Virus record (IMG/VR): IMGVR_UViG_3300043015_001985
Coordinates: 1-36,778 of that record
DNA length: 36,778 nucleotides
Source: a virus
Strand: one strand, 5' to 3'
Shown in pieces: positions 28,103 to 36,778 of the stretch. Made by a program: the position numbers and the translations under genes. The notes beneath the pieces were generated by a model. It was not told where the DNA came from. It was given only the letters and a program-made list of their open reading frames with translations, and ran no database searches. The first letter of the stretch is position 1; the number at the start of each line of letters is the position of its first letter.

Positions 28103-29464
28103 TTAAAACTCTACTTTTCTTGAAGAGCCAACTCTGACCTTTCGATTAGGTTTGCTCTTTGGTTGATAGTTGCGGGATGACTCTGTCCAATGATGGAAGA
28201 TACAATCATATCTCAGAGCATCAAGAGGATCCTCGCGTCCATCTTTCTTTGGTTGTTCTTTGTTATCCCAAGCATATGAGAGAAGAGCTTTTCTGATTGA
28301 GTTGCCACTTGCTCTCTCTCCTTTGTCCCATACTTCACGAGTGATCAAGTACTTTCCAGAGTTGAAAGCACGCTTCAATCTTTGCACTCCATTGAGTACG
28401 TCAATCCTCACCGGGTCCGTTGTCGACCTCATTGGCAATCCTATTCCTCCATCGTCGGGATGCTTGCGAATCATACGAAAAGCTGAGAGTCCTGTATGAT
28501 CTGATCTTGCTTTTCCGGCCTTGTCTGCCACACCTGTGTCAAGCCATACTCGTGAAGATGGTGCCATTGACATCAAGGCACGAGGCCACGCAAAAGCAAG
28601 AATCATCTGACTGAGCTGCTCGATTGTCACTTCCTTGGGATTGAATTCATGGATAATGATTGAGGCTTCTCTCACCTCATCATATACGATGACCAACACA
28701 CTTGGCTTCCGGAAGCCCCAGTCAATCGCTATTCGTCCTGTCATGGATGGATCATACTTGAAGTCATCAATGATATGTTTCTCATGATCAAACTCAGAAT
28801 ACACCAAACCACTTGGAGGCTTTGGTTTATTCATGACCATGGCCTCACGTTCATCAGGAGGGAGGAGCTTTGTTGCTTCAAACCACTCCTCACTCAAGTT
28901 GTCTTGATTGACATATGATGAATAAAACAAAGGTTGATACTCTGCTTTCTCTGCCATCTTGCACCACCAAGCATCAATGACAGGAAGCCCAACGAGGATC
29001 ATGATTGGACTTGGTCCACTTCTCAAACGACCAAGAGCCTTGTGAGCAACCTCGGAAGTCAAGGTCTGACATTCATCGATCATGCAGACACCACTCGTTA
29101 CGTTGAGACCCTCGAGAGGATTGTGAGTTGCTTCTCTTGTACCAGGTCGATAATACGAGCGACACCAAACAGTTGATCCATTCTCAGTGTCTGTCCACAA
29201 TTTATTCGTGTGATTGTATGTCCATCCAAGAGGAGCAAGCCACTTCTCCATTTCCGGCATGAGGACCGAGTTATATCTTGGGGTTGTGTCAGTCACCATC
29301 AAAGATGACATGCCCGGCCTCATCTTGGAGACGAGCAACATGGAGAAGACAAGTGCTGAGGTCTTACCACTTCCCCATCCACAACGAGCCGCAATGATCT
29401 TGTCTCTTTGTCCGATTCGTTTGATGATCTCTGTTTGTAGCTCATTGGGGTTGATGTCAATCAT
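28103..29464 (-). CDS. terL: Terminase large subunit
   Basis: The 453-aa product is the packaging motor and headful nuclease. Residues 28-35 (CGWGSGKT) form the Walker A motif and GVCMIDE (125-131) the Walker B motif with the catalytic Glu. The nuclease domain shows AIDWG (D248), VWLDTG (D309) and EDPLDALRYD (D412/D415) as metal ligands. The start at 29464 overlaps the GHKL stop (ATGA) and has no close ribosome site, so it is translated by coupling to that gene. The circular assembly of the contig fits headful packaging. Confidence 0.95.
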   Translation of the reverse strand: MIDINPNELQTEIIKRIGQRDKIIAARCGWGSGKTSALVFSMLLVSKMRPGMSSLMVTDTTPRYNSVLMPEMEKWLAPLGWTYNHTNKLWTDTENGSTVWCRSYYRPGTREATHNPLEGLNVTSGVCMIDECQTLTSEVAHKALGRLRSGPSPIMILVGLPVIDAWWCKMAEKAEYQPLFYSSYVNQDNLSEEWFEATKLLPPDEREAMVMNKPKPPSGLVYSEFDHEKHIIDDFKYDPSMTGRIAIDWGFRKPSVLVIVYDEVREASIIIHEFNPKEVTIEQLSQMILAFAWPRALMSMAPSSRVWLDTGVADKAGKARSDHTGLSAFRMIRKHPDDGGIGLPMRSTTDPVRIDVLNGVQRLKRAFNSGKYLITREVWDKGERASGNSIRKALLSYAWDNKEQPKKDGREDPLDALRYDCIFHHWTESSRNYQPKSKPNRKVRVGSSRKVEF

Positions 29465-31395
29465 TTCTTTGGTTTCAATCCTTTGGTGGAGAGTGCTTGT
29501 TGTACTTTGGTGTAAAGGTTGTATCCAAGCAATGATCCCATGAGTTCATCCTTGGTCACTTGGCTATCGACTTTCAATTGAGGATAACGCTTGACGAATG
29601 CCATCTTATGAGCATGAGCAACCTTGATATCAAGAGTAACAACTTGTTGAATCTCATCCTGGATTATTTTACGTCGCTTGTCACCTCCCTTGTAATAACT
29701 TACAAAGTAAGCTTCCATTTGCTTGAATAGGTCATGTGATGGATCTGCCCAAATCGTTGTCCCACTATTCGAGACCTCGGATGTCAATGGATATGAGAAT
29801 CCATTGAAGCCGAGATATCGACAATCATCTTCTCCGGTTGCAGATTCCCAAATGACTGAGGCCATCAAGTCTCTTTTCTTCTTCTCTTGCATGCTTGCCT
29901 TGTTCAACTTGTCAAGCTTCTCTTTCATCTTCTTGCTGATCTTGGGAGTCTTTGGATCTGATCCAGTGCTGTCACCTTTCTCGGCTTTGATTGGAAGTTG
30001 CAACTGATCTTGTCCATCCTTGTCATATGCAAGTTGATCCTCAAGTTCACGAGTCACTTTGAGCTTGAATAAAAACTTGTACTTATTGAAGATCTCCTCA
30101 TCTGAATGCTTGAAGTTCATTTTCTTTTTCAGTGCATTGTCAATCAAGTCAGATACTTCTTGAGGCATATTATCAATAAAGAATTCTCTCACTTCTTTGA
30201 GGTCAAGGACCTTGGTCTCTTGATCCTTGTTGCCATCTTCCATCATGAGAGTATCACGGCCCTCATTGGGGAACACTCCATAGTTTGTCTTTGGATCATA
30301 CTCAGGAGGGACAACGATGATCTTGACTTGACTCATGACTTCATCTGCAATGATTCCCCATTGTCTTGATGCACGTTTGCCGGTCTCAAGATTGTATAAT
30401 TCATTCTTGTATTTTACTGCAATGAATCCATTGTTATATGAAGTTATATCGAATCTTTTATTTATTGCTTCATATTTTATTGTTTGATTAACTTTTGTGA
30501 TAGGTTCTTTGCTGATATAAGTAATAATTTTAAATTCATTAAAATCAAGCGTTTGAATCTTTTTAAAGCCAAGATGTAAAGATTCATAATCAAACCCATG
30601 AGAGACCTTATAACGGAACTTACCTTTATGATAATGAGCCGACGATATAATTGTACTTAAATCATAAAATCTTTTATTGATATAGTAGTTATATGCTGAA
30701 TCATTTAATAGTTTACCACGAGCATCCTTGCACCAAGTTGAATCATGCTGATGCATTCCACAAAAATATACAATTGTTCCTTGATCCTCAATGATATTGT
30801 ATCTTCTTTTCTCAGCATTCCACCACTTGACTCCCTCGAATCCTCCCTCATCTTCATAGGTTGCTTCAAGCTCTTTCAATGATACGACTTGCTTATAAAC
30901 AAACTCATACTCTCCATCATCTTGTCTTTCATATACAGGTATATGACGAACTCCAAATTGTTTGGCTTTCTTGTTGTAACACAACCAAATCATATTTCCG
31001 TCTTTTGACTCTTTGGTCCATGAGATAAACACAAGACCATAATGATTGAAGCTTGATGCCGTTGCTTTGATACCAATACCAAAGTTATCATGATGACCTC
31101 CGGATACCTTGGATGATGAATTGTATTTATTGATGTATTGCAAGAGTTCTTTTGCATTCATACCGCAACCATTATCAACGATTGACAATCTTTTGACTCC
31201 ACCTGGCAAGGAGGCATGATCTTTCATTGCAAGTGGACAAGGCTCAACTCGGACACGTGTTGCACCGGCCTCGATTGCGTTTTGAATTGCTTCTCTCAAG
31301 AATTGCATAGGTGCGACTTGTCGACCAAAGCGAATCATTGTTGATGATGGTGAATCATCTTTGATTGGTGTGAATTGACTTCTTTTCATATTCAT
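29461..31395 (-). CDS. GHKL/HATPase-type ATP-binding protein between the terminase genes
   Basis: The 644-aa product has the Bergerat ATP-binding fold of gyrase B, Hsp90, MutL and MORC. The N box is at 35-42 (EAIQNAIE), G1 at 74-78 (DNGCG), G2 at 105-110 (FGIGIK) and a GT motif at 206-207. A second domain ends with PPEYDPKT and GVFPNEGRD (about 363-381), similar to the S5-like transducer part. The C-terminal 250 residues are charged and helical, without a recognised topoisomerase, kinase or nuclease motif. The start at 31395 has AAGGAAATATC. Related ATP-binding proteins occur in other phages, but their role is not established. It could aid packaging, remodel DNA or proteins, or block host defence. 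Confidence 0.85.
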   Translation of the reverse strand: MNMKRSQFTPIKDDSPSSTMIRFGRQVAPMQFLREAIQNAIEAGATRVRVEPCPLAMKDHASLPGGVKRLSIVDNGCGMNAKELLQYINKYNSSSKVSGGHHDNFGIGIKATASSFNHYGLVFISWTKESKDGNMIWLCYNKKAKQFGVRHIPVYERQDDGEYEFVYKQVVSLKELEATYEDEGGFEGVKWWNAEKRRYNIIEDQGTIVYFCGMHQHDSTWCKDARGKLLNDSAYNYYINKRFYDLSTIISSAHYHKGKFRYKVSHGFDYESLHLGFKKIQTLDFNEFKIITYISKEPITKVNQTIKYEAINKRFDITSYNNGFIAVKYKNELYNLETGKRASRQWGIIADEVMSQVKIIVVPPEYDPKTNYGVFPNEGRDTLMMEDGNKDQETKVLDLKEVREFFIDNMPQEVSDLIDNALKKKMNFKHSDEEIFNKYKFLFKLKVTRELEDQLAYDKDGQDQLQLPIKAEKGDSTGSDPKTPKISKKMKEKLDKLNKASMQEKKKRDLMASVIWESATGEDDCRYLGFNGFSYPLTSEVSNSGTTIWADPSHDLFKQMEAYFVSYYKGGDKRRKIIQDEIQQVVTLDIKVAHAHKMAFVKRYPQLKVDSQVTKDELMGSLLGYNLYTKVQQALSTKGLKPKK

Positions 31396-31444
31396 GATAT
31401 TTCCTTTTGTATTACATTTAACTAGGGCGAGTGGATGTATAGAT

Positions 31445-31488
31445 AGCACTGATCAGTCTTCCTTTTGCTGGTCAGTGCTTTCTTTTTT
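31445..31488 (+). terminator. Rightward-oriented intrinsic terminator-like hairpin at the small terminase end
   Basis: On the + strand AGCACTGATCAGT (31445-31457) pairs with GCTGGTCAGTGCT (31467-31479), thirteen pairs with two G-U wobbles and a 9-nt loop, followed by TTTCTTTTTT. This is a good intrinsic terminator, but in the direction opposite to all genes here. In the leftward RNA the same stem has two mismatches and no U tract. It may stop antisense transcripts or affect the terS/GHKL junction. Confidence 0.45.
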
Positions 31489-32744: not shown

Positions 32745-33404
32745 ATGAAAGAAAACAAGATGGATGGACTTGGGTTTGTGGATCTGATTGATCAGATGGG
32801 GGATTCACTCTCGATTGTAAATGCTGCTCGTGTCAGCTTTGGCAAACGTCACACCGGTGCATTGAGACAACAAGATCGAAAGCTCATCAAATACTTATGG
32901 AATCACAAACACACATCTCCATTCCGACACGTGACATTCACATTCCACATCAAAGCTCCGATCTTTGTTTTGAGACAATGGCAAAAGCATCAAGTAGGAT
33001 CAACATTCAATGAGATTAGTGGAAGATATGTTCGATTTGATTATGAGATGTATCAACCTCACCAATGGAGAGAGTCTGCTGAGAATGTCAAGCAAGGATC
33101 CGGAGGACCATTGATGAATCAGAGTGAACCTGCTGATCTTTACAAGTGGGCTGTTCAACATCAATATTTCATATACAATCAATTGCTTGAGATGGGTGTG
33201 TGTCGTGAGCAAGCTCGTCTCGTGCTTCCATTGTCAACATTCTCAGAATGCTATTGGACCTGCTCTTTACAGGCACTCATCCACTTCTTAAGGTTGAGAC
33301 TTGCAAAGGATGCACAAGCTGAGATCACTTATTACGCTGAGGCCATCAAGTCAATTCTTGAGAGAGATGATGACATGAGATTCGTCCTTGAGGTTTGCTT
33401 ATGA
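32745..33404 (+). CDS. thyX: Flavin-dependent thymidylate synthase
   Basis: The 219-aa product converts dUMP to dTMP with FAD, NADPH and methylene-tetrahydrofolate. Characteristic segments are the N-terminal ARVSFGK, then HTSPFRH, and the signature around NEISGRY. The usual RHR triad is replaced by K81-H82-Q83, with one extra residue before S92; I recall similar K/R-H-Q variants in phage ThyX, so activity is likely. The start at 32745 has GAGGT eight bases upstream. It is coupled by ATGA to dCMP deaminase, which makes its substrate. The RNR in the late block completes the pathway. Confidence 0.93.
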   Translation: MKENKMDGLGFVDLIDQMGDSLSIVNAARVSFGKRHTGALRQQDRKLIKYLWNHKHTSPFRHVTFTFHIKAPIFVLRQWQKHQVGSTFNEISGRYVRFDYEMYQPHQWRESAENVKQGSGGPLMNQSEPADLYKWAVQHQYFIYNQLLEMGVCREQARLVLPLSTFSECYWTCSLQALIHFLRLRLAKDAQAEITYYAEAIKSILERDDDMRFVLEVCL

Positions 33405-33844
33405 AGTGGTCAGAGCATTGGATGAAACATGCTGTACTCATTGCATCAATGTCACCTTGTCCACGTGGTCAAGTAGGAGCATTCATCATTGATGAGAATA
33501 ACAATCCAATCTCAGCCGGCTTTAATGGTCCTCCTCGAAAGTCAGAATCCAATCTTTGTGGAAGTGGGAACCGTTGCTTGAGAAATTGTCAATCAATCGA
33601 GTCAGGTACAAGAACGGAAGTTGGATGTCATCATGCTGAGCAGAATGCAATCTCGAACGCTGCTCGAAAAGGAGTGAGGCTTGAGGGAGCTTGGATGGTT
33701 GTCTCAGTGCCTCCTTGTTTGGCCTGTGCTAAGTTGATTCATCATGCTGGCATCAAACGAGTTCATGTTTTAGATTGCGAATACTCTCAAGATGGTGTAA
33801 ATTATCTTTCATTCAACGGGGTGGATGTGTTTTTTTCAAACTGA
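33401..33844 (+). CDS. dCMP deaminase
   Basis: The 147-aa product turns dCMP into dUMP for ThyX. The zinc site is visible as H78-A79-E80 (with E80 the proton shuttle) and C106-X2-C109 in PPCLAC. The insertion CGSGNRCLRNC before the active site resembles the second metal or allosteric region of phage dCMP deaminases. Length is normal for the family. The start at 33401 overlaps the thyX stop (ATGA) and has GAGGT upstream; the TTG at 33395 is rejected. The two genes form a dedicated thymidylate pair. The 50 bp after it contain only a weak hairpin. Confidence 0.93.
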   Translation: MKWSEHWMKHAVLIASMSPCPRGQVGAFIIDENNNPISAGFNGPPRKSESNLCGSGNRCLRNCQSIESGTRTEVGCHHAEQNAISNAARKGVRLEGAWMVVSVPPCLACAKLIHHAGIKRVHVLDCEYSQDGVNYLSFNGVDVFFSN

Positions 33845-33894: not shown

Positions 33895-34797
33895 TCATTG
33901 TCCCCATACAGATTGTTTGTTCAATGGCTTTCTTCTGTCTGGTCCTGTAATCTGAATCGGATGCTGAAACATCTCTTGAAGTCTTGAGAGTGCAGCATAA
34001 TTGTCTTCAAATAATGTTTCTTTGAGTGCAATTGGAAAGATGTTTGTTGTGATGATGACCGCCATTCGTCCCGCTTTCCATCTCTCATAGATTGATCCAA
34101 TCAACTCAATGGTAGTATTACGAAACCAATCAGAGTATTTCTTGACACCTCCACCAAGGCCACCAAACTCATCGAGTAATAAAACATCAACATCATGCAA
34201 GAAATAGTCGAGATGACTTGATCCTGTCTTCTTTGCCCACGACTTTTTCTCTGCTTCAAATGCTCGATAGTGATGAGCATACTTGACTTTGAATCCATCT
34301 GCTACCTTGTGTTTTGCAATGATATATAATAGTGATGATTTGCCATTGCCGGGTTGACCATACATCATGAATGATGGTGGTGAGGTTTGACCATCCCAAT
34401 TCATGATCTCATAAAAAGCTCCTTGTTGATTTGGACTGTCAAACTCATATGATGAAATACAAGCGTTGAGAGCATCGTTGGGAAGTCCAGCACGAAGCAA
34501 ACGATTGAGAGCTTTTCTGAGCTTTCCACAATTGCGACATAAGATTGCATTTGGATGAATGCCATCTCTCACATACTCATATCCCTCAACACATGAATTG
34601 CAAAGAGGATCGTTGATTGCAAGTGAACGATTACGACCTGCACGAATCAAACCATTGAGGTGAAAGTAATCAGCATCAAAGTTTGTCCAGTCATGATGTT
34701 CAGGAGGCTCCGGTTTTGTTCGTCCTTGATCCTCAAGGATTGCTTTGAATGAATGTAGTAATACTTTTAGTTGTTCACTGTCTCCAAGTCTTTTCAT
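33895..34797 (-). CDS. DnaC/IstB-like AAA+ helicase loader with zinc finger
   Basis: The product has 300 residues. The N-terminal part has four cysteines, C66-X2-C69 and C87-X2-C90, probably a zinc finger. The AAA+ domain has Walker A GQPGNGKSS (147-155), Walker B VLLLDE (205-210), sensor-1 TTN (250-252) and an arginine finger candidate R272. It would load the host replicative helicase at the phage origin, as lambda P and DnaC do. The phage has no helicase of its own. The start at 34797 has GGAGATAATT and overlaps the region after the initiator stop by TAATTATG. Gene order initiator-loader parallels lambda O-P. Confidence 0.9.
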   Translation of the reverse strand: MKRLGDSEQLKVLLHSFKAILEDQGRTKPEPPEHHDWTNFDADYFHLNGLIRAGRNRSLAINDPLCNSCVEGYEYVRDGIHPNAILCRNCGKLRKALNRLLRAGLPNDALNACISSYEFDSPNQQGAFYEIMNWDGQTSPPSFMMYGQPGNGKSSLLYIIAKHKVADGFKVKYAHHYRAFEAEKKSWAKKTGSSHLDYFLHDVDVLLLDEFGGLGGGVKKYSDWFRNTTIELIGSIYERWKAGRMAVIITTNIFPIALKETLFEDNYAALSRLQEMFQHPIQITGPDRRKPLNKQSVWGQ

Positions 34798-34799
34798 AA

Positions 34800-35522
34800 T
34801 TATCTCCATGTTCTTTTGATTGGTTTGGTTGAATCGTAAATGTCAAAGTCTTCTCTGATCTCTTTCTTTTCAAAAGTATCTCTGACTCGTCGGATTGCAA
34901 ATACATTGTGATCTTGCTTTGAAATATCATCTTTGTTCCAACGTCGCTCCATCTCAAGTCTCCTATGCTTTGCACTGAGAACATGAAAAGGAACCTTGCC
35001 TCGTTCATCGACCATATAAGAAAGACTTTCAAAAGGTTGTGATGAAGTATGTTCAAGAGCTTCTTGTTTGCTCACCATCTCAAGATCATCTTTATTGATA
35101 TTTATTGTATTATTATTGTTCTTATTGATATGAGTGTCATTTTGACATTCACTAGATGTCATTTTGTCACTGTCCACAATGTCATTTTGACATTCACTAG
35201 ATGTCATTTTGTCACTGTCATTTTGACACTGTGTCATTTTGACACTCCCTTTTTTTAAAGTTAATGTTTTGAGATCAACATCAATGATTGTCTCGCTAGG
35301 TTTTGAATTAACTTTGATCCATCCAAGATTCTTTAATCGTTGAATGATTCTGTGTAGTGTTCTGAGATTCACATCATACTTCTTACTTATGTATAATAAT
35401 CTGACTGATCCTCTCCAGGTAGACCAATCAACATTCTTGAGAATGCAGATCATCACAAACTTGTCAGCTGGCTTGACTCCTCTTGCTTGCATGACAAGTG
35501 ATTGCACTTCGAACTCATTCAT
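34800..35522 (-). CDS. Replication initiator with winged-helix domain, containing the origin repeats
   Basis: The 240-aa product has an N-terminal winged helix-turn-helix (about 15-85; VMICILKNVDWSTWRG, VNLRTLHRIIQRLKNLGW). A repetitive linker (SDKMTSSECQND twice, then NKNNNNTININ) follows, and then a charged helical C-terminus. As in lambda O, the linker is encoded by the iteron array, so the odd amino-acid repeats reflect DNA function. The C-terminal part may contact the helicase loader made by the next gene. The start at 35522 follows GGAGAAAACA in the shared leader motif. It is transcribed from a strong promoter at 35557-35585 that carries an iteron-like operator. Confidence 0.82.
   Translation of the reverse strand: MNEFEVQSLVMQARGVKPADKFVMICILKNVDWSTWRGSVRLLYISKKYDVNLRTLHRIIQRLKNLGWIKVNSKPSETIIDVDLKTLTLKKGSVKMTQCQNDSDKMTSSECQNDIVDSDKMTSSECQNDTHINKNNNNTININKDDLEMVSKQEALEHTSSQPFESLSYMVDERGKVPFHVLSAKHRRLEMERRWNKDDISKQDHNVFAIRRVRDTFEKKEIREDFDIYDSTKPIKRTWR
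35091..35244. other. Putative replication origin: six iterons and AT-rich tract
   Basis: The 13-mer TGTCATTTTG(A/T)CA occurs six times, with its 12-bp core (GTCA...CA) starting at 35136, 35158, 35181, 35203, 35217 and 35233. A 39-bp direct repeat (35136-35174, 35181-35219) carries the first four. Each A-type copy is itself an inverted repeat of TGTCA/TGACA. Directly beside it (35091-35134) is an AT-rich stretch with repeated TTATTGATAT, a likely unwinding element. The array lies in the initiator gene, as in lambda. Confidence 0.78.
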
Positions 35523-35544
35523 TGTTTTCTCCATGATTGTTGGT
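35523..35544 (-). promoter_or_regulatory. Shared early leader motif before the initiator
   Basis: The leader ACAATCATGGAGA directly before the initiator start also precedes the HTH gene at 35678 (ACAATCATGGAGA) and, with an inserted AATCAT, the gene at 36504. It contains the SD GGAG. The identical context suggests selection beyond simple ribosome binding. Confidence 0.55.
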
Positions 35545-35556
35545 TTGCATGATTCT

Positions 35557-35585
35557 CTTATATATACGAGTTGACCTTTTGTCAA
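35557..35585 (-). promoter_or_regulatory. Leftward promoter for the initiator and loader
   Basis: Leftward TTGACA (35585-35580), a 17-bp spacer and TATAAG (35562-35557) make a near-consensus sigma70 promoter. Transcription would start near 35550, 28 bp before the initiator ATG. Its -35 lies inside the iteron-like palindrome. Confidence 0.78.
35571..35585. promoter_or_regulatory. Operator-like palindrome TTGAC-CTTTT-GTCAA
   Basis: This 15-bp inverted repeat overlaps the -35 boxes of both divergent promoters. Its core TGACCTTTTGTCA differs from the iteron TGTCATTTTGTCA at only two of thirteen positions. The simplest reading is that the initiator binds here and represses its own and the divergent promoter; the small HTH protein is an alternative ligand. 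Confidence 0.62.
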
Positions 35586-35642: not shown

Positions 35643-35677
35643 ACTTCATATCAACACAAAACAATCATGGAGACAAC

Positions 35678-35893
35678 ATGAGCAGACTCAAGAAAACAGT
35701 TAAAGCAGCACTCGCCAAAGAGGGATACACGGTTGCCGATCTTGCTCGACGTATGGAAATACATCAATCAAGTCTTTCAAAATATTTAAGAGGAGACATG
35801 AGAATGGATACTGCTTTGAGAATTGCTAGATCATTGGCAGACATGACAGGCTATCATCTCACTCTCAACGACTTTAGAAAGGACGAGCAATGA
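35678..35893 (+). CDS. Xre/Cro-like helix-turn-helix regulator
   Basis: The 71-aa product starts MSRLKKTVKAALAKEG and has a standard HTH_3 motif (TVADLARRMEIHQSSLSKYLRG, helices 2 and 3 at about 17-38). No extra domain is present, so it is Cro-sized. It is the first rightward gene after the divergent promoter region and probably represses one or both promoters. The start at 35678 is set by the shared leader ACAATCATGGAGACAACATG. It overlaps the next gene by ATGA. No integrase accompanies it, so it may regulate lytic timing instead of lysogeny. Confidence 0.85.
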   Translation: MSRLKKTVKAALAKEGYTVADLARRMEIHQSSLSKYLRGDMRMDTALRIARSLADMTGYHLTLNDFRKDEQ

Positions 35894-36478: not shown

Positions 36479-36503
36479 AACAATCATAATCATGGAGAAA
36501 CTT

Positions 36504-36778
36504 ATGTTAAATCAAGACACAATCAACCTCATTCAAAATCTTTCAAAAGGTCCCAAAGACTTTGATGATAATATGAAAGCAGTCCTTACCTTTGGTCATC
36601 TCTTTGAGAATAATGTTGCTGTCACCTTGGCAAATACATATGTGATCAGTGGCAAGCCTGCTCTTAATGCTGACGCAATGGCTGGTGTCGTTCGTCGATA
36701 CAAGGATCATGATGGTGTGAAGATCTGTGCTTACATTCGAGTCGTTGAACTTAATGAAGACTTATGTACAATCGAGAC
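36504..36778 (+). CDS. Conserved phage protein, possible RecT-like recombinase (N-terminal part)
   Basis: The gene starts at 36504 with MLNQDTINLIQNLSKGP, behind the leader ACAATCATAATCATGGAGAAACTT, and runs off the window end. On the circular genome it continues at position 1 and stops at 414, giving 188 residues. The N-terminal part is helical (VLTFGHLFENNVAVTLANTY) and leads into the conserved SGKPALNADA segment. It is the last gene of the rightward early block. See the entry at 1-414 for the C-terminal motifs and the reasons for the tentative family. Confidence 0.6.
   Translation, partial: MLNQDTINLIQNLSKGPKDFDDNMKAVLTFGHLFENNVAVTLANTYVISGKPALNADAMAGVVRRYKDHDGVKICAYIRVVELNEDLCTIE
36657..36778. 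repeat. Right copy of the terminal overlap repeat
   Basis: It equals bases 1-122 except for a at 36677 (g at 21), a silent third-position change in an Ala codon. The subtraction gives a genome length of 36,656 bp. Reads or clones differing at this site would be natural variation or a sequencing error. Confidence 0.9.

Follow-up and report, generated by a model that had tools for sequence, protein, structure and literature searches.

Iterons inside the initiator gene of a marine bacterial virus probably form a theta-type replication origin

The 36,778-bp stretch of viral DNA analysed here in full (hereafter the window) carries a short repeat inside the gene for a putative replication initiator, which raises the question of whether the virus starts to copy its genome within the gene for its own initiator. 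The answer, given with high confidence, is that the linker-coding part of this gene contains a theta-type phage origin, as the O gene of phage lambda contains ori and as is the case for RepA_N plasmids. Phage lambda and some plasmids already provide examples of this layout, to which the window adds a new, well-documented one in a marine bacterial virus; for an uncultured phage group, the locus supplies a probable origin at a known position, together with a loader and an initiator that can be named.

The iteron array (35135..35244, no strand assigned) consists of six copies of TGTCATTTTGWCA, which read TGWCAAAATGACA on the coding strand of the gene. As a previous reading of the DNA from its letters alone (the sequence-only reading) had claimed, all six are exact copies of TGTCATTTTG(A/T)CA, starting at 35135, 35157, 35180, 35202, 35216 and 35232 on the plus strand with start-to-start distances of 22, 23, 22, 14 and 16 bp; no further exact copy of TGTCATTTTGWCA occurs elsewhere in the 36,778-bp record. 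The interval then given for the array, 35091–35244, was right for 35135–35244 but had merged in an AT-rich tract at 35091–35134. Read along the coding strand, the 13-mer comes close to a perfect palindrome (TGTCA-AAA-TGACA). An exact 45-bp duplication that preserves the reading frame makes up part of the array; its 40-nt copies, which start at 35135 and 35180, match at every position (100% identity), and this duplication accounts for the alternation of 22 and 23 bp. The spacings of 14 and 16 bp do not correspond to whole helical turns, which counts against an origin.

The copies switch between phase 2 of the initiator gene, where they encode V/D-K-M-T, and phase 0, where they encode C-Q-N-D, while the combined spacings (22 + 23 = 45 bp and 14 + 16 = 30 bp) hold pairs of sites in frame. 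Since one DNA repeat is read in two frames, it is the DNA, and not the protein, that repeats. Given the peptide and the codon usage of the phage, the chance that all six copies would use the same codons is about 10^-6.2. Over the 18 unique genes of the family described below, 53 of the 109 sites lie in phase 0, none in phase 1 and 56 in phase 2; a phase 1 reading of CAAAATGA would give a TGA stop. The linker peptide would then be whatever the iteron DNA encodes in two stop-free frames, and this two-frame use supports the previous suggestion that the repeat in the protein linker arises as a by-product of the repetition in the DNA.

The initiator gene (34800..35522, minus strand) encodes about 240 amino acids from an ATG behind GGAGA, a start picked by inspection. 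The full minus-strand open reading frame extends over 34800–35585, with 35522 as the probable start, and includes all six iterons, in agreement with the placement of the array inside the coding sequence by the sequence-only reading. The protein is made up of an N-terminal winged helix-turn-helix (wHTH) domain, the proposed reader of the iterons (35247..35516, minus strand), a disordered linker encoded by the iterons and a helical C-terminal domain, the proposed contact for the loader (34803..35093, minus strand). This division derives from an AlphaFold2 model, with residues counted from the TTG at 35585, in which the wHTH is ordered at 24–113, the linker has pLDDT values below 50 at 110–164 and helices follow at 165–217; the predicted disordered linker coincides exactly with the iteron-encoded part. 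The wHTH assignment also draws on a profile match to the lambda-O family. The model is moderate in quality (mean pLDDT of 54.5, about 80 for the wHTH), and its matches in a PDB fold search were generic wHTH proteins, centromere-binding ones among them, none at E <= 0.001. A tblastn search of cultured phages with the initiator and the loader gave no match.

Directly adjoining the array is the AT-rich tract (35085..35134, no strand assigned, 82% AT), which is the proposed unwinding element. It is A-rich on the coding strand of the initiator, ranks within the top 0.3% for AT content among windows of 50 bp and is one of the five 60-bp windows with the lowest stability in the genome. GC skew, also put forward for this region in the sequence-only reading, mainly reflects coding bias and gives no signal at 35.1 kb. 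Downstream, overlapping the end of the initiator gene by about 10 bp, the next gene encodes a protein with two CxxC pairs (33895..34809, minus strand), which had rightly been taken for a DnaC-like loader: it matches phrog_50 (E = 8.6e-22) and, above the cut-off, Pfam PF01695 and PF00004 (IstB/AAA). With its invariant Walker A motif, GxxGNGKS, the protein belongs by sequence criteria to the DnaC-like AAA+ family of helicase loaders.

A search of IMG/VR with the wHTH alone returned 25 loci, corresponding to 18 unique genes including that of the window. All 18 hold 3–8 semi-palindromic sites, the centre of which is kept as CAAAATG or CAAATTG while the arms vary: TGTCA..TGACA in the window type, GGACAAAATGACC in L014 and L079, TAGACAAAATGTCTA in L085, GGTCAAAATGACC in L081 and L084, TGTATCAAAATGATACA in L088–L090 and AGTGACAAAATGTCACT in L093 and L097. 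In Mantel tests the iterons correlated with the wHTH (r = 0.32, p = 0.007; 0.24, p = 0.03 in the partial test on the C-terminal domain), the C-terminal domain given the wHTH had a value of −0.02 against the iterons, and the C-terminal domain correlated with the loader at r = 0.91 (p = 0.0001). These values indicate that arm sequence follows the type of the wHTH, not that of the C-terminal domain or loader, and that C-terminal type follows loader type. The modest p value for wHTH and iterons is partly due to the convergence of unrelated wHTH types on similar arms.

Individual relatives display this exchange in both directions. The window and L009 have the wHTH and iterons in common and differ in C-terminus and loader, and L009 and L014 have the C-terminus and loader in common and differ in wHTH and iterons. 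The loader of L088 equals that of the window in protein sequence, its wHTH and iterons are of another type, and its DNA homology to the window restarts at 35130, 5 bp beyond the array. The first wHTH type is found with C-terminus A (the window and L078) and B (L009), the second likewise with A (L079) and B (L014), and the third with A (L088) and another type (L089 and L090), combinations that appear close to factorial. At the level of sequence, these pairings show that wHTH and iterons have been exchanged as one unit, apart from the C-terminal domain and loader. The relatives (18 close genes and 50 linked through the loader) thus amount to a natural swap experiment, which would assign the reading of DNA to the wHTH and contact with the loader to the C-terminal domain. 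A candidate recognition code of a single residue, in which the x of TLxR would be paired with the base beside the core, fits eight iteron types; a further scan aimed at this code gave the same genes again and no independent set. A split layout is found in three other phage contigs, L019 (5005–5470), L032 (11883–12417) and L040 (2833–3300), where a stand-alone wHTH reading frame of 120–139 aa is followed directly 3′ by GTGTCAAAATGRCAC, repeated every 20–22 bp in a very similar array that is non-coding. Iteron-like CTGTCAAAATG was also observed in L033 (1689–1790), as opposed pairs within the 3′ portion of a gene in which no wHTH is evident.

A search with the loader alone returned 80 loci, with 50 unique initiator genes upstream; this sample overlaps the wHTH-selected one, the nearest relatives being present in both. 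At least four clustered 11-mer repeats occur in the linker region of 48 of the 50 initiators, and of the two others L250 is truncated. Adjacent loader-length DNA, which has a mode of two clustered repeats, served as the control in place of a synonymous-codon shuffle, a null that is too conservative because the linker codons are already homogenised. The iterons are very varied (GTGACAGAAAGTCAC, GATACGACAGAATTGGTCA, CTAGCTCATAGTGAGCTA and others), and 33 of the 50 arrays span more than one reading frame. As 48 of the 50 genes contain an array despite this variety, conservation of the array's position extends much further than that of its sequence. Loss of the repeat from a retained initiator, which the sequence-only reading had named as evidence against an origin, was looked for in both samples; with arrays in 18 of 18 and 48 of 50 genes, the in-gene iteron origin stands and is strongly supported by comparison. 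The comparative evidence for it is unusually clean.

The closest parallels are found in phage lambda and in the RepA_N replicons. In lambda O/ori/P, as here, an initiator with an N-terminal wHTH has palindromic iterons with an A-rich centre in its linker-coding DNA, and the order is wHTH, iterons, A-rich tract and helicase loader. The lambda iterons, TCCCTCAAAACGAGGGA, are read in three frames (QNEG, SPKTRD and YPSKQG) and have arms and a centre unlike those of the window, and the partner is lambda P instead of an AAA+ DnaC-like loader, although in lambdoids such as mEpX1 a DnaC-like loader also follows the O gene. It is documented that lambdoid O proteins bind iterons and that the iterons are needed, and the number of iterons differs between the relatives of lambda, such as phi80, the P22-like MG40 and the Stx phages (PMC7466680). 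The wHTH of the window aligned with 12 lambda-O-type proteins in a profile–profile comparison (probability 79, E = 1.7e-5), so that the previous description of the locus as lambda logic built from unrelated-looking parts was too strong. The window protein has no match to PF04492 (Phage_rep_O) at E <= 0.1, and three of 16 relatives match it weakly (best 0.0018).

In the RepA_N plasmids pSK41 and pTZ2162 and in RepA of the Vibrio cholerae PLE, as in the window, semi-palindromic iterons around a poly-A centre lie inside rep and the N-terminal domain is swapped together with the origin; the window differs in that its replicon belongs to a phage and includes a loader gene of its own. The RepA_N N-terminal wHTH binds semi-palindromic iterons that converge on a poly-A tract, and is exchanged against a conserved or host-specific C-terminal domain (PMC5703833, PMC7145576, PMC8263062). 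The Rep boxes of pSK41 are central in rep, where the peptide of the linker can be dispensed with (PMC5703833); in PLE, the N-terminal domain and its origin covary and are exchanged together (PMC7145576, PMC8263062). Neither the window protein nor any of 16 relatives matches PF06970 at E <= 0.1, and the hhalign value of 1e-7 against RepA_N proteins is inflated, the alignment reaching into the iteron-encoded linker. PF13730 (HTH_36), the type of the phage-like N-terminal domain of pPR9 Rep (PMC5703833), weakly matches 13 of 16 family members (best 7e-6) and does not match the window protein at E 0.1. The initiator is therefore, as far as profiles tell, distantly similar to lambda-O proteins in its wHTH and not a member of PF04492 or PF06970. 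Several relatives match O-like PHROGs; for phrog_428 the E-value goes from 2.2e-7 with the linker to 0.014 with the linker masked, so the iterons, through the linker that they encode, contribute to the PHROG score. Peptides of iteron origin (CQND, KMT) can thus inflate matches between distant initiators by some five orders of magnitude, as judged from the phrog_428 E-value.

Other functions for the repeats were weighed against an origin. They might be operators in a transcription switch governed by the Cro/C1-type HTH protein encoded at 35678–35893, whose gene is transcribed divergently from that of the initiator; palindromic repeats are frequent among phage operators, and a weak iteron copy with two mismatches lies at 35572, in the intergenic region. 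Nevertheless, L078 and L079 have almost the same HTH protein and different iterons, L014 and L088 have the HTH protein in common and differ in their iterons, L009 has an unrelated reading frame in its place and unchanged iterons, and the array is located at least 280 bp inside the neighbouring gene, which together make a regulatory role very improbable. That selection acts on the protein, with its repetitive linker SDKMTSSECQND, and that the DNA repeat is the by-product, is harder still to credit: the 45-bp unit is in frame and does yield a protein repeat, but the two frames of the same DNA give different peptides, and 33 of the 50 loader-selected arrays span more than one frame; in relatives the DNA sites stay while the peptide changes, arrays persist as non-coding DNA in the split loci, and the linker is predicted to be disordered.

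An array bound by the wHTH could instead act in copy control, incompatibility or partition, with replication starting elsewhere. In 2014, Schumacher and co-workers reportedly found that RepA_N wHTH tetramers bridge iteron DNA, and such bridging suggests handcuffing; the formation of tetramers by the RepA_N N-terminal domain is described in PMC5703833, and centromere-binding proteins are among the fold matches, as mentioned above. This role is nonetheless judged quite unlikely, because the low-stability tract directly adjoins the array, the helicase loader is the next gene in an order that matches lambda, the genome has no second array and none of the neighbouring genes was noted to be ParA-like.

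If the array is an origin, as preferred here, wHTH dimers of the initiator would bind the six semi-palindromic iterons, with their TGTCA/TGACA arms around an A-tract, through a putatively specific recognition of TGTCAAAATGACA. The resulting nucleoprotein complex would open the adjoining AT-rich tract, and the C-terminal domain would hand the DnaC-like loader and the host replicative helicase to the single strand. More tentatively, wHTH and in-gene iterons may form one specificity cassette that recombines against a constant C-terminal domain and loader in these marine phages, perhaps under selection to change origin type, whether through incompatibility or to escape origin-directed nucleases such as ICP1 Odn. 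Were this the case, reading the recognition helix against the iteron arms could yield a natural protein–DNA recognition code.

Pattern searches had raised CAAAAYG as a universal core for lambda O, RepA_N and the family of the window, and this was rejected on protein-selected samples. The lambda-O relatives differ in their centre (phi80 CCCGAAAACGGG, PhiR30 TTACCYGAATCAGGTAA, mEpX1 TGTCTC...), at least three clustered copies occur in one of 15 RepA_N loci and one of 30 phrog_428 loci, and the loader-selected relatives use many other iterons. The RepA_N genes L044, L051 and L074 do carry the core, which is absent from most RepA_N loci sampled. Pattern matches in genome contigs include unrelated arrays, such as those of Alicyclobacillus with a 41-bp period: in L042–L063 (Alicyclobacillus sp. 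ALC3), L046, L059 and L060, chromosomal arrays of this period contain GTGTCAAAATGACAC or ATGTCAAAATGACAA, with many repeats within one genome.

Some features of the record lie outside the replication locus or only border on it. The initiator, the divergent HTH gene and a RecT-like gene share one leader, ATCATGGAGA, ahead of their starts (35523–35541, 35660–35678 and 36489–36498), with 16 matches at one mismatch or fewer against seven expected. The ends of the record, 1–122 and 36657–36778, overlap by 122 bp with one mismatch, and the contig is therefore probably a complete, circularly mapped genome; the overlap cuts through the RecT-like gene, and the record is not flagged as complete. A nucleotide-metabolism set, listed jointly with a GHKL-ATPase protein at 545–2590, 32745–33404, 33395–33844 and 29461–31449, includes a ribonucleotide reductase with a weak match to the B12-dependent (class II) type, ThyX and dCMP deaminase, and the GHKL-ATPase protein, of 662 aa, sits between the terminase genes.
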